DNA of 61,244 nucleotides from Candidatus Poribacteria bacterium (GTDB lineage: Bacteria; Poribacteria; DTPJ01; WJIO01). Where the stretch lies: the NCBI GenBank assembly GCA_014730235.1, contig WJIO01000421.1:1-61244 (forward strand). Reading direction: 5' to 3'. This document shows positions 2,475 to 56,825 of the stretch, piece by piece. The position numbers and the translations under genes are program-made. The notes under the pieces are model-generated. The model searched no databases, had not been told where the DNA came from, and was given only the letters and a program-made list of their open reading frames with translations. How positions within the stretch are numbered: the first letter of the stretch is position 1; every line of letters begins with the position of its first letter.

Positions 2475-3251
2475 TTGAGAAAAACCATACTGATGGTTGG
2501 TCTGTTTATGTTTATTTTTATTAGTTGCCTTTATGCTTTTGATGATCCTGACCTTACTTTTTATTTCCCATTTGAGGCATTTGATGGTGATACAGCTCTG
2601 GATAAATCGGGCAAGGGTCACAATGGAACCATCAACGGCAATATAAAGATCGTTGATGGTGGCGGAAAAATAGGAAACGCCGCTGAATTTGAGCAGACCA
2701 GTTTTATTGATCTTGATGGTGCTAACTTTCCGCTGGAAGATATACCTGTGGAAGAGATGACTCTGATGGCCTGGATTAAACCGGAAAATACCGGTGGTGA
2801 TCATGCTATATTTAACGCCAGATCTGGTGATTCCACGTGGCTTATACATCCCGAAGCCAAAAGTTCCGGTCAATTTAGATGGCTGCTTCGTGCTGCTGGT
2901 GGTAACACTATCTTTGACATGAAGTTAGGTACGGTAGTCTGGGATGAATGGCAACATTATGCAGGGGTATATGACGGTGATAATGGTATTCTATACATAA
3001 ATGGTCAGAAAGAAGGCGAAATGGCTGGTGGTGCTGATATTTCCCCAGACTGGGCCCAGGGAGCACGTATTGGATATAATATTGATAATAACAGACCATT
3101 CACCGGTGTTATGGATGAGATTTCCCTGTGGAAACGAGCTTTGACACTGGATGAAATTACCGCAATTATGAATAATGGCCTTGAGGACTTCATGGCTGTT
3201 AATCCTGCTGAAAGTCTTTCTACCACATGGGGAAAGATTAAGAGCTTTTAG
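2475..3251 (+). CDS. Secreted LamG-domain protein with C-terminal W-motif (first of a tandem pair)
   Basis: The start is TTG at 2475, chosen because a perfect AGGAGG (2461-2466) lies 8 nt upstream. A Sec signal peptide (hydrophobic LMVGLFMFIFISCLYA) is followed by a LamG/concanavalin-like jelly roll. Its marks are YFPFEAFDG, DKSGKGHNGTINGN, the WIKPENTGGDHAIFNA strand and the closing GVMDEISLWKRALTLDEI helix typical of Laminin_G_3. Such domains usually bind carbohydrate or act in adhesion; no catalytic domain is present. The last residues, VNPAESLSTTWGKIK, match the short C-terminal motif found on six other proteins here. It is a close paralogue of the next gene. Confidence 0.85.
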   Translation: MRKTILMVGLFMFIFISCLYAFDDPDLTFYFPFEAFDGDTALDKSGKGHNGTINGNIKIVDGGGKIGNAAEFEQTSFIDLDGANFPLEDIPVEEMTLMAWIKPENTGGDHAIFNARSGDSTWLIHPEAKSSGQFRWLLRAAGGNTIFDMKLGTVVWDEWQHYAGVYDGDNGILYINGQKEGEMAGGADISPDWAQGARIGYNIDNNRPFTGVMDEISLWKRALTLDEITAIMNNGLEDFMAVNPAESLSTTWGKIKSF

Positions 3252-5572: not shown

Positions 5573-6118
5573 ATGGAGAAACTTAGAAAGGAATTTGAAG
5601 ATACAGCTTTAGAGCATATGGGAGCTATATATAGCGCAGCCTTGCGAATGTCTAAAGATAAATCTGAAGCTGAGGATCTGGTTCAGGATACATATTTAAG
5701 AGCTTATCGTTTTTTTGATAGATTTGAACCGGGCACTTCGATTAAAGCCTGGTTATTTAGAATACTTAAAAATACATATATAAATAATTTTAAAAAAAGA
5801 TCAAAAACTCCTGAACACATAGATTTTGATCGGCTTAGATTATCCGAAGAGGAACCAACAAGCTCTCATAATCCGGAGGAGGAAGTGTTATATAGCACCT
5901 TTGGTGATGAGCTTATGCGCTCAATAGAAGCTTTACCGGAAGAATTCCAAAAAGTTATAATGCTGTCTGATGTCTACGGATATTCATATAAGGAAACGGC
6001 CAAAGAGCTTGGTCGTCCAATAGGAACTGTTATGTCAAGATTGCATCGAGGACGAAAATTATTAAGAATTAGCCTTTATGAACAGGCTAAAGAATTGGGG
6101 TATGCAATCGAAGGCTAA
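5573..6118 (+). CDS. ECF-type RNA polymerase sigma factor, SigR/SigH-like
   Basis: A 181-residue sigma factor with sigma-2 (about residues 15-80: AALRMSKDKSEAEDLVQDTY, RAYRFFDRFEPGTSIKAWLF, RILKNTYINNFKKR) and sigma-4 (about 120-175: ALPEEFQKVIMLSDVYGYSY then the HTH ETAKELGRPIGTVMSRLHRG). The GTSIKAWLFRILKNTYIN stretch is characteristic of the SigR/SigH (ECF12-type) group, which in actinobacteria is controlled by a zinc anti-sigma factor and senses thiol oxidation; I infer a redox-stress role from that likeness. No anti-sigma gene is adjacent: a terminator-like hairpin and then a cysteine desulfurase follow. The start has only a weak Shine-Dalgarno (GAAGGGAAA). Confidence 0.85.
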   Translation: MEKLRKEFEDTALEHMGAIYSAALRMSKDKSEAEDLVQDTYLRAYRFFDRFEPGTSIKAWLFRILKNTYINNFKKRSKTPEHIDFDRLRLSEEEPTSSHNPEEEVLYSTFGDELMRSIEALPEEFQKVIMLSDVYGYSYKETAKELGRPIGTVMSRLHRGRKLLRISLYEQAKELGYAIEG

Positions 6119-6142
6119 TTATACTGAACTAAAAAATGAAAT

Positions 6143-6180
6143 AAAGACCGGATTCCTGATCAGGTTTCCGGTCTTTAGTA
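6143..6180 (+). terminator. Terminator-like hairpin between sigma factor and cysteine desulfurase
   Basis: AAAGACCGGA (6143-6152) pairs with TCCGGTCTTT (6167-6176), with a nested CCTGATCAGG palindrome (6155-6164) that extends the stem. A short T-containing tail follows. It lies only 10 nt before the Shine-Dalgarno of the next gene, so it may attenuate rather than fully separate the two genes. Confidence 0.65.
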
Positions 6181-6196
6181 TTTATAGGAGATGAAT

Positions 6197-18886: not shown

Positions 18887-19681
18887 TTAATTCAGCATCT
18901 TGATCCTTGCCCATGCAATACCAAGCTTATCTTTTGGTGTAACAGCCAGCCCGTCGGCCTGGAAATTTTGCTGTACTTCTGCCTGAGTAAGGGCTTTTTC
19001 GTAGATGCGCACCTCGTCTATATATCCCTGTATAGTATCAGTGTTTTTGCCGTCTGCCCGATCTCCGATACCAAAGAATAAATTTCCACCTACAAAGTTA
19101 CTGGAAAGAGAGTAAGTTTTTACAGCTACACCGTTTTCGTAGTATTTCACAGTCTTACCATCCCATGTTCCTACCAGGTGCAGCCAATCCTCCAGGGGTA
19201 TATCCTCCTGTATCATATCATCTTCAGCCGCACAGCTTTCCCCATCTGCTCTAAGGAAAAAGCCATGCTGATCATCGTCATCATCGTAATAAAGACTGGC
19301 CACGTTTAGATTACCTGCGTCGGTATCATCCAGGGATAAAATACGGTTCCAACTATCGTCAAGGGCATTTATAAAGACCCAGCATTCCAGGGTTATCTGC
19401 TGATAATCTCTGTTAATTACCTCAGAATTAATCAGGATACAATCGGCATCACCATCGAGAAGCAGACATTCACCTATTTTACCTGGGGCCAGCTCCGGAT
19501 CACCTTTGATCTCTCCATGACTCTCGCCAAAAACATCCTGGACAATATTATCGGCTATAGTAGCTTCATCCATAGGCCAGTAAGCCAGCAAACCATTAGT
19601 GACAGCACCAGCCCTGACTAATTGTGGATAGAATAAGATTATTAAACATGATAGAGAAAAACTTACTAAAAAACCTTTCAT
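18887..19681 (-). CDS. Secreted LamG-domain protein with C-terminal W-motif
   Basis: The start is ATG at 19681, chosen because AGGAGG lies 11 nt upstream and a signal peptide (GFLVSFSLSCLIILFYPQLVRA) begins there; the frame extends further upstream but into the preceding gene's end. One LamG jelly roll: GLLAYWPMDEATIAD, LLLDGDADCILI, ITLECWVFINALDDSWNRI, WLHLVGTWDGKTVKYYENG and the closing GYIDEVRIYEKALTQAEV. It ends VTPKDKLGIAWARIKMLN, the shared W-motif with three extra residues. Last gene of a minus-strand unit after a P1 peptidase and a glycosidase-like gene. Confidence 0.83.
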   Translation of the reverse strand: MKGFLVSFSLSCLIILFYPQLVRAGAVTNGLLAYWPMDEATIADNIVQDVFGESHGEIKGDPELAPGKIGECLLLDGDADCILINSEVINRDYQQITLECWVFINALDDSWNRILSLDDTDAGNLNVASLYYDDDDDQHGFFLRADGESCAAEDDMIQEDIPLEDWLHLVGTWDGKTVKYYENGVAVKTYSLSSNFVGGNLFFGIGDRADGKNTDTIQGYIDEVRIYEKALTQAEVQQNFQADGLAVTPKDKLGIAWARIKMLN

Positions 19682-54805: not shown

Positions 54806-55372
54806 TCAAATGTTTTTCTGTGAATAGAAGGATAGCAATTTGGTACCATAACTATTTTGCCTGATAAGGGTCAGATTCCCCTCGCTTTCAAGGACATCCT
54901 CTTTAACGTCATGTTCCGCTATCAATAATCCATTATCTGCCAGTATGTTGTTTTTAAATATATGATTTAGGCTTTCTTTTACCAGACCTTTGCGATACGG
55001 TGGATCAAGAAAAATGATGTCAAACTGTTTGTTCTGCTTGTTAAAAAAAGCTGTAGCCTTTGACATATTCATCTTCAATAGAGTAATACCGGGAGAGTTA
55101 GGAGATAAGCTGATTTTAGCCAGATTCTGGGAAATTGCCTTTATACAAACTGGATTAGCATCAACAAATGTAACCTCAGACGCACCTCGACTGATTGATT
55201 CAATTCCCACATTGCCGCTTCCGGCAAATATGTCCAAAAACCTGGCATCAATAACCTTATCCCTGAGTATGCTAAACAGGGATTTTTTTACACGATCTGC
55301 CGTATACCTTATATCTGCGCCTTTTACTGATGATATTCTTCTGCCTTTATATTCCCCCGCAATTATCCTCAT
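54806..55372 (-). CDS. rsmD: 16S rRNA (guanine966-N2)-methyltransferase RsmD
   Basis: 188 residues. RIIAGEYKGRRISSVKGADI and YTADRVKKSLFSILRD are the RsmD N-terminal signature; DIFAGSGNVGIESISRGA binds AdoMet and IFLDPPYRKG is the N2-guanine methyltransferase DPPY motif. ATG 55372 lies 2 nt after the stop of the rhodanese frame (TAAATATG) and no Shine-Dalgarno precedes it, so initiation probably depends on ribosomes finishing the rhodanese ORF, i.e. on reading through its internal UGA. Confidence 0.93.
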   Translation of the reverse strand: MRIIAGEYKGRRISSVKGADIRYTADRVKKSLFSILRDKVIDARFLDIFAGSGNVGIESISRGASEVTFVDANPVCIKAISQNLAKISLSPNSPGITLLKMNMSKATAFFNKQNKQFDIIFLDPPYRKGLVKESLNHIFKNNILADNGLLIAEHDVKEDVLESEGNLTLIRQNSYGTKLLSFYSQKNI

Positions 55373-55374
55373 AT

Positions 55375-55821
55375 TTAGCTGTTAAATTCGGTTGGGTAAC
55401 CGCTTTTTTCCCACTCAGGCAAGCCGCCTTTAAGAAGTTTAAGATATTTCCTGTCAAAACCCAGTTCCTCTTCCAGTAATTGCGCCGACCTGGCGCTTGT
55501 GGCTTCTGACAGTCAGCTACAATAGAGAATTATATCTTTATCCTCTGGCAGTTGATTAACTTTTTCCCGCAAACCATCGGGATAGCTCATCCACAGCGCA
55601 TCTGGTATATGGGATATATCGTAACTTTGTTTACCGCGTACATCCACTATCACAATATCAGCTTGAGAATCTATTAGCTTTTTCAACTCATGGACGGTAA
55701 TTCTCTCGTAATCAGTTGTATCGTTATTATCAACATTATCAACAGAATTAGATTTTCCACAGCCGAAAGACATCATCATAATGAAAAGTAAAACAATATT
55801 TATAATAATAAGTTTTTTCAT
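55375..55821 (-). CDS. Lipoprotein rhodanese with in-frame UGA: candidate selenoprotein
   Basis: 148 residues if UGA is read as selenocysteine. ATG 55821 (a TTG 15 nt upstream is also possible) is followed by a leader ending MSFGC (lipobox, Cys21). The rhodanese domain: ITVHELKKLID, IVIVDVRGKQSYDISHIPDA, LPEDKDIILYCS, then UGA at codon 103 (55515-55513), then LSEATSARSAQLLEEELGFD and LKGGLPEWEKSGYP before TAA. The frame beyond the UGA encodes exactly the expected second half of a rhodanese, including the EATSAR part of the active-site loop. From memory, relatives have C-x-C-P-x-E-A-T-S-A-R, so the UGA takes the second Cys position. A SECIS-like hairpin follows. The alternative is a nonsense-mutated pseudogene; preservation downstream and coupling to rsmD argue against it. 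Confidence 0.72.
55482..55496 (-). promoter_or_regulatory. SECIS-like hairpin downstream of the in-frame UGA
   Basis: In the mRNA the stem GCGCC, loop AGGUC, stem GGCGC begins 17 nt after the UGA, so the loop lies at nt 22-26. Bacterial SelB-recognised SECIS hairpins have a G/U-containing apical loop at about this distance; the loop of the classic E. coli formate-dehydrogenase element is very similar (AGGUCU, from memory). The bulged U of the E. coli element is not evident here. Confidence 0.6.
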
Positions 55822-55822
55822 G

Positions 55823-56749
55823 TTAAATTTTTCCAATAAGGTTTAATTGATCAATAAATTTCTGGGGTATCAAACCTGATATATCTATAGGAACATCCCA
55901 GGTGACAACGCCGCCTTTAGAATTTACATCCTTAGTATAACCAACTACGAATTCATCCACAAACCGGGGTTCACCGTGTCCCCAACGTTCCCCAAGATAG
56001 CTGAGTATGTGATACTGCGTTCCGTTCAGCCACCGGTTTGGGCAGATAGGAAATATTGTCGATATTTCCCCGGCTGTATAATCTTCATATTCCGTCAGGG
56101 TTATTACAGGGGTTTTAACTCCCGGATTAAAAGCTATTATGCTTTCGGGATTTCCGACTTTCAGGGCATAGGCAAAGCTCTTAAAGTTTGGCGGATCATC
56201 ATGTCTATACATTTCATCGGAGAAATAGCACCCGTCAATCCACCATCCATGAACCTTATTTCCCCATCTTAAAGACCATTCCCTTATTATCTTTTCCCAT
56301 TTTAACTGGAACTCGGCCAGTCGTTTGCCTGTTCTCTTTGGCCCACCTGAAGGCCATTGCCCTTCATAACCCCATTCCCATCCCAGACGTTCCATAGCTA
56401 CAGGATCAGCCGCCGGTGCACCGCTGGGTAGATAGACCATAAGCCTGATACCCTCTTTGGTCAAAGCATCTGCCAGTTCCATGATGAGATCGCGCTTTGA
56501 GCATTTGCTGGGTTTTATGCCCACAAAGGAATCATAGGTATCGTTAGGGGAACAATAATGACCGGAGTTTTGCCCTATGGTTATGAAATAATATGGAGTT
56601 CCTGTTGCTTTTAGCTGTTCTACCAGTCCATCTACGTTGAAATTATCAATCTGTGAATTCCAAACTTCTGCTGTGGTTTCTTTTCCTGTCAAATAGTGAG
56701 TAAAAACACCCCATTTAGCATCTTTGAACCAGTCTGTATTTGATTTCAT
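55823..56749 (-). CDS. GH29-like (alpha-L-fucosidase-family) protein
   Basis: The start is ATG 56749: the longer frame would run through the terminator at 56791, so it is not used. 308 residues. WFKDAKWGVFTHYLTGKET starts the barrel as in GH29, TPYYFITIGQNSGHYCSPND covers the His region, and HGWWIDGCYFSDEMY holds the likely nucleophile Asp of the WxDG motif. It is shorter than full fucosidases and lacks a signal peptide and C-terminal sandwich, so the substrate may differ. Its stop abuts the rhodanese ATG by 1 nt. Confidence 0.75.
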   Translation of the reverse strand: MKSNTDWFKDAKWGVFTHYLTGKETTAEVWNSQIDNFNVDGLVEQLKATGTPYYFITIGQNSGHYCSPNDTYDSFVGIKPSKCSKRDLIMELADALTKEGIRLMVYLPSGAPAADPVAMERLGWEWGYEGQWPSGGPKRTGKRLAEFQLKWEKIIREWSLRWGNKVHGWWIDGCYFSDEMYRHDDPPNFKSFAYALKVGNPESIIAFNPGVKTPVITLTEYEDYTAGEISTIFPICPNRWLNGTQYHILSYLGERWGHGEPRFVDEFVVGYTKDVNSKGGVVTWDVPIDISGLIPQKFIDQLNLIGKI

Positions 56750-56790
56750 GGTTTCTTTTCTTAATTTATGGTATTTGGTGAAAAGCACAC

Positions 56791-56825
56791 AATGACCGCC
56801 CCGATTGAAAATCGGGGCGGTCATT
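56791..56825 (-). terminator. Terminator after queD
   Basis: A 15-bp GC-rich stem AATGACCGCCCCGAT (56791-56805) with ATCGGGGCGGTCATT (56811-56825), loop TGAAA. It lies 8 nt after the queD stop on the minus strand and closes the metV-metF operon. Confidence 0.87.

Follow-up and report, generated by a model that had tools for sequence, protein, structure and literature searches.

The window analysed here, a stretch of 61,244 nucleotides, carries on its minus strand a small rhodanese-like gene that is interrupted by a single in-frame UGA and flanked closely on both sides by other open reading frames. The features of this locus are listed below.

55823..56824, minus strand: upstream neighbour of 333 amino acids, alpha-L-fucosidase-like by reading of its sequence, ending 1 nt before the rhodanese ATG.
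55375..55821, minus strand: predicted rhodanese-like selenoprotein gene, 148 amino acids, running from ATG to TAA across a single in-frame UGA.
55759..55821, minus strand: N-terminal signal sequence with a lipobox-like MSFGC (Cys21), matching the PROSITE lipoprotein pattern.
55405..55698, minus strand: rhodanese domain, residues 42-139 (Pfam PF00581, E 1.9e-15, 57.6 bits against a cut-off of 22.2).
55519..55521, minus strand: Cys101 codon (UGU) at the catalytic rhodanese Cys position; UGA (Sec) in 11/15 homologues.
55513..55515, minus strand: UGA codon for the predicted Sec103, which closes the Cys-Ser-Sec motif; all 15 homologues have UGA here.
55482..55496, minus strand: SECIS-like hairpin GCGCC-AGGUC-GGCGC, with a stem of 5 bp, an AGGUC loop and its start 17 nt past the UGA.
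54806..55372, minus strand: downstream neighbour, an RsmD-like methyltransferase of 188 amino acids by reading of its sequence, for which TGA is the real stop.

When the UGA at 55515-55513 is translated as U, the frame from 55821 to 55375 runs on as DIILYCSULSEATSARSAQLLEEELGFDRKYLKLLKGGLPEWEKSGYPTEFNS to its end, this codon being the sole interruption in a frame that has no other stop or frameshift, and the Pfam search recovers a complete PF00581 domain that spans it. The earlier note's description of one continuing frame, in which the normal second half of a rhodanese follows the UGA up to a TAA and nothing is shifted or decayed, is borne out by these observations and by the retention of the 3' half as protein among relatives. 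The downstream RsmD-like ORF starts at 55372, 2 nt past the rhodanese TAA, and this tight packing makes the TAA look like the true end of the gene. Elsewhere in the window TGA acts as an ordinary stop in 7 of the 45 long ORFs. Residues 11-21 of the protein (LLFIMMMSFGC) fit the PROSITE lipobox pattern, with an atypical Ser at -3, and a short spacer separates the MSFGC N-terminus from the rhodanese domain. Export through the N-terminal signal to a location outside the cytoplasm is very likely, and lipid anchoring at Cys21 is probable from the sequence; the initial designation as a lipoprotein holds as far as the pattern match goes and is weakened by the unusual -3 residue. In the active-site loop, YCSULSEATSAR, Cys101 occupies the catalytic position, two codons upstream of the UGA. 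By reading, this loop (CSULSEATSA) appears two residues longer than the CxxGxxSA type of ordinary single-domain rhodaneses, and classical thiosulfate sulfurtransferase activity therefore cannot be assumed. A structure model computed from the single sequence (pLDDT 53) is readable for helix and strand order only.

The hairpin lies at 55496-55482, with the position and sequence first described for it: its first base is the 17th nucleotide past the UGA, and the gap between UGA and loop is 21 nt. Published constraints for bacterial SECIS elements comprise a loop of 3-9 nt, a stem of 4-16 bp, a spacing of 16-37 nt, an MFE <= -7.5 and a G within the first two loop positions (PMC13188914). In the folding check that the earlier note had proposed, the window hairpin fell within all of them, with a 5-nt loop (AGGUC), 5 bp, 21 nt and -8.3 kcal/mol, and an 81-nt fold around it gave z = -1.69. 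Of 2216 TGA trinucleotides across the window, 26% precede some such hairpin and only 1.1% precede one with dG <= -8.0 kcal/mol; because of these chance rates the single window hairpin is suggestive and not decisive, and the decisive part of the hairpin evidence is conservation among relatives. An Rfam scan of the rhodanese locus returned chance hits only and no SECIS-type match.

Homologues were sought in 97 related genomes, 84 of them from the phylum, including the genome of the window. A first search gave strong homologues in 13 other genomes, all with an in-frame TGA (10 YUSU and 3 window-like YCSU when translated), and a profile search gave 15 matches of at least 110 bits including the window, again with TGA at the site in every one; the fifteenth, in genome G071, reads YUGU. 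The next matches, at no more than 78 bits, are other rhodaneses, the best of which have no internal TGA. Drawn from six families of the phylum, the 15 homologues thus divide into YUSU in 10, YUGU in 1, and YCSU in 3 relatives plus the window, and the 84 phylum genomes searched yielded no member of this subfamily with Cys alone. That every one of the 15 homologues has UGA in this alignment column argues that the codon is not a recent mutation. The relatives of the window gene are all distant, at about 35-50% identity, and none is a close sister. On the best tree, which has weak support, the CSU form requires two changes, and either CSU or USU may be ancestral.

The RNA element is conserved across this distance. 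A 5-bp stem begins exactly 17 nt past the UGA (the second UGA in USU genes) in 14 of 14 CSU/USU genes, its cells are paired in 100% of them, and the second loop base is G in all. In two of these sequences one stem pair is C-G instead of U-A, both bases having changed through synonymous third positions. The covariation score of the stem, at two cells, was equalled by 7 of 500 shuffles and is limited since one stem pair alone covaries. More telling than covariation is the freezing of codon choice, which occurs around the hairpin only: where residues are the same, codons are identical in 78% of pairs from -1 to +10 around the UGA vs 48% elsewhere (p = 1e-4), with the Ser before the UGA encoded by AGC in 14/14, Glu at +3 by GAA in 14/14 and Ala at +9 by GCG in 13/13. 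Over the whole part past the UGA, differences between the window and its relatives amount to 0.46/0.29/0.61 by codon position, and to judge from these values the gene beyond the RNA element diverges in a protein-type manner.

Most relatives have signal-peptide-like N-termini without a lipobox, and most end in a tail, KPKGKRxTLWGRIKS, that resembles a motif common on exported proteins here; together these features fit a location outside the cytoplasm for most family members. The motif itself, approximately V.P..KL.T.WG.IK, stands at the very end of exported ORFs. It was counted in 15 of the 1053 long ORFs, where 0.8 would be expected, and has the look of a C-terminal sorting signal used across the lineage. 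The similar tail occurs on the rhodanese homologues of relatives and is absent from the window rhodanese.

Plus strand, ends at 3251, 4133 and 40269: window ORFs with the C-terminal motif.
Minus strand, ends at 18887, 28246, 30439 and 53538: window ORFs with the C-terminal motif.
Loci L099, L101, L103 and L104: further ORF ends with the motif.

Outside genus g8, in which the rhodanese gene has a flavin disulfide oxidoreductase-like ORF nearby, no conserved gene neighbourhood or partner was found. Family members numbered 0 among 4, 1 and 40 genomes of three other phyla, an absence of little weight since these are small sets that gave no positive-control match, and a search of viral contigs yielded no rhodanese homologue. 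A scan of genome contigs matched only an ordinary Bacillus rhodanese (32%) and a plasmid search matched one Deinococcus rhodanese (35%). Two of the double-Sec sequences in relatives are described separately. One is a second rhodanese type with the motif YUGUPGEGSAA, apparently lacking a signal peptide:

L096 (G071:C33), about 5850-6193, plus strand: second double-Sec rhodanese type.

The other, L036 of G079, is a UxU rhodanese that continues in frame into parts named by reading as HEAT-like and AhpC/TSA-like; a third UGA, in ADWUGYC, would make it a possible triple-Sec fusion protein.

The window genome, a MAG of 5.53 Mb in 451 contigs (91.6% complete, 4.8% contaminated), contains selA, selB, selC and selD, a check that the earlier note had proposed. 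Its tRNA-Sec, with anticodon UCA, scores 79.1 bits, over the cut-off, and has an 8-bp acceptor (GAGGGAAG/CTTCCCTC), G73 and an encoded CCA; selB scores 366.6 bits. There are two selA-like genes (530.2 and 424.1 bits, both over the cut-off), on contigs C246 and C64 of the window genome, G000 (L015, L016), the better of which covers model positions 68-452 only; their joint presence would reflect a paralogue or a binning mix. The selD gene (394 bits) has an in-frame TGA of its own in GAGUACK (GxUACK), so Sec would be used elsewhere in this genome too:

L101:2004-3182, plus strand: selD with in-frame UGA, its own downstream GCAGGUUCUGC hairpin, adjoining hypD/hypE-like ORFs.

As the genome is a MAG, the link between machinery and gene rests on composition and not on one contig: the tetranucleotide signatures of the Sec-machinery contigs correlate with that of the window at r 0.68-0.81. 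Two parts of the window compared with each other give 0.67, and relatives do not exceed 0.45.

Among the 15 genomes with a UGA-rhodanese, tRNA-Sec was found at high score in 13, a co-occurrence that discriminates little because tRNA-Sec is common in the phylum. A UCA tRNA-Sec was not found in G067 and G079, both about 80% complete. In G067 neither selB nor selC was found; since selB adjoins selC in the relatives G056, G061 and G071, the absence of a single locus from a MAG that is 80% complete accounts for this case. G079 has selB, together with only a GCA-anticodon Sec-like tRNA:

L144:1502-1595 (G079), plus strand: tRNA-Sec-like tRNA, anticodon GCA, U after the acceptor stem.

This tRNA has a BadF/BcrA-type ATPase ORF on one side and a cysteine desulfurase-like ORF on the other, and it resembles the selC* tRNA-Cys of PMC7609411.

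A rhodanese selenoprotein with a CxU motif has already been catalogued, as NF041203 rhodanese_LYCAU ('rhodanese-like domain-containing protein form 3', TKB26178.1; PMC13188914) and as 'COG0607 form 2' in PMC9312934. Like NF041203, the window protein is a small, single-domain rhodanese with Sec two residues past the loop Cys (YCxU, a motif present in the window and 3 relatives, with YUSU in 10 and YUGU in 1), and its alignment covers nearly the whole model. Unlike it, the window protein scores 80 bits against an equivalog cut-off of 115 (seven relatives tested scored 58.7-108.1), and the window family appears to be mostly UxU with two Sec and exported; the protein therefore works like this kind without reaching its membership cut-off. 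The novelty suggested by the earlier note is for that reason narrower than proposed and concerns only the occurrence in this lineage, a lipid anchor that is likely, and the UxU relatives. No double-Sec rhodanese of the UxU type turned up in the 2026 review (PMC13188914), and the newness of this type is provisional because literature outside open access and genomes beyond the phylum were hardly covered. The nearest double-Sec rhodanese in that review is TsoB (NF045694, UxxxxU), a rhodanese/DsbD fusion-like protein that shares with the relatives a rhodanese domain with two Sec but has a 572-position fusion model and another motif, of which the window protein matches the rhodanese part only (38.6 bits against a cut-off of 805). 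Rhodanese selenoprotein forms 1, 2 and 4, with UxxS and UxxG motifs (PMC13188914), and the rhodanese-related selenoproteins of marine surveys (PMC1088965, PMC2398784) likewise carry Sec in a rhodanese-related protein, whereas the window protein differs from the single-Sec forms 1, 2 and 4 in that Cys occupies the catalytic position and Sec follows at +2. The single-domain rhodaneses GlpE and PspE share the fold of the window protein but have Cys only and a shorter loop, and the window protein scores 33 bits against a GlpE cut-off of 102.

Taken as a whole, the Sec machinery, the UGA in 15/15 homologues and a hairpin kept in both position and pairing give strong support to the proposed selenoprotein, and we put the probability that the UGA at 55515-55513 is read as Sec at roughly 0.95. 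The contrary reading, in which this UGA is a true stop, a sequencing error or a recent mutation and the 3' half a decaying remnant, can draw on the fact that a standard gene finder stops there and on the chance frequency of bSECIS-like hairpins (26% of TGAs). Against it, homologues from six families all have UGA at the same codon and in none is the Cys form found, the 3' half is kept as protein without a further stop or frameshift, and the next ORF starts 2 nt past the TAA. We consider it extremely improbable, and a pseudogene interpretation was rejected on the shared UGA and the intact, conserved 3' half. Hardly more credible is insertion of Cys by a selC*-type tRNA-Cys (UCA), or genome-wide reassignment of UGA: selC* tRNA-Cys with UCA anticodons do exist (PMC7609411) and G079 has its GCA selC*-like tRNA, but the window UCA tRNA has a Sec-type 8-bp acceptor and G73, not U73, SelA, SelB and SelD are present and a conserved hairpin follows the UGA. 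TGA terminates 7/45 long ORFs, and both versions were rejected on the G73 tRNA-Sec, the Sec machinery and the TGA stops in use.

Other alternatives accept Sec insertion and concern what is made of it. Vicinal CxU or UxU pairs should, from general chemistry, bind soft metals well, and the pair might accordingly not be redox-active but bind a metal or metalloid or accept selenium, as part of an exported selenium/metal chaperone or sensor. Metal-binding double selenoproteins are indeed catalogued (PMC13188914), yet the loop occupies the persulfide-forming position of rhodaneses and no partner genes recur beyond one genus, and we regard this function as unlikely. We are still more doubtful that both a truncated, selenium-free lipoprotein and the full selenoprotein are made in a ratio set by selenium supply. 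According to PMC4513850, Sec readthrough of UGA competes with termination and needs sufficient selenium; against this, the 102-residue product would lack half of the fold and no special feature suggests regulation.

Under the preferred reading, Sec insertion followed by export, SelA, SelB, SelD and tRNA-Sec (UCA) would act with the hairpin to insert Sec at the UGA, reading would continue to the TAA, and the N-terminal signal would direct export of the product, with Cys21 as the probable site of a lipid anchor. The rhodanese fold would then set Cys101 and Sec103 in the lengthened active-site loop, where the pair may cycle between reduced thiol/selenol and a Cys-Sec selenylsulfide or, alternatively, sulfane sulfur may be carried on one of the two and released by attack of the other; the Sec-Ser-Sec relatives would use a diselenide. 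This complete account, combining insertion, export and a redox or sulfur-relay C101-U103 pair, appears very likely from the sequence evidence, and the putative function would be that of an exported selenol/thiol redox or sulfane-sulfur carrier, although for the specific role of the C-x-U pair in redox chemistry or sulfur relay we would give only even odds.

In summary, a clean and conserved selenoprotein family, with genes that ordinary gene finding would truncate or split, is added to this phylum. With a confidence that is evenly balanced, we propose phylum-specific exported rhodaneses with a Sec-x-Sec site, probably a diselenide, encoded by two UGAs 6 nt apart with one SECIS hairpin, of which the Cys-Ser-Sec of the window would be a mixed selenylsulfide version. 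In the UxU relatives the single hairpin begins 17 nt past the second UGA and 23 nt past the first, so that either SelB accepts two spacings within one message or the first insertion is needed for the second. The natural CxU/UxU series would allow the benefit of a second selenium in an exported thiol protein to be examined.
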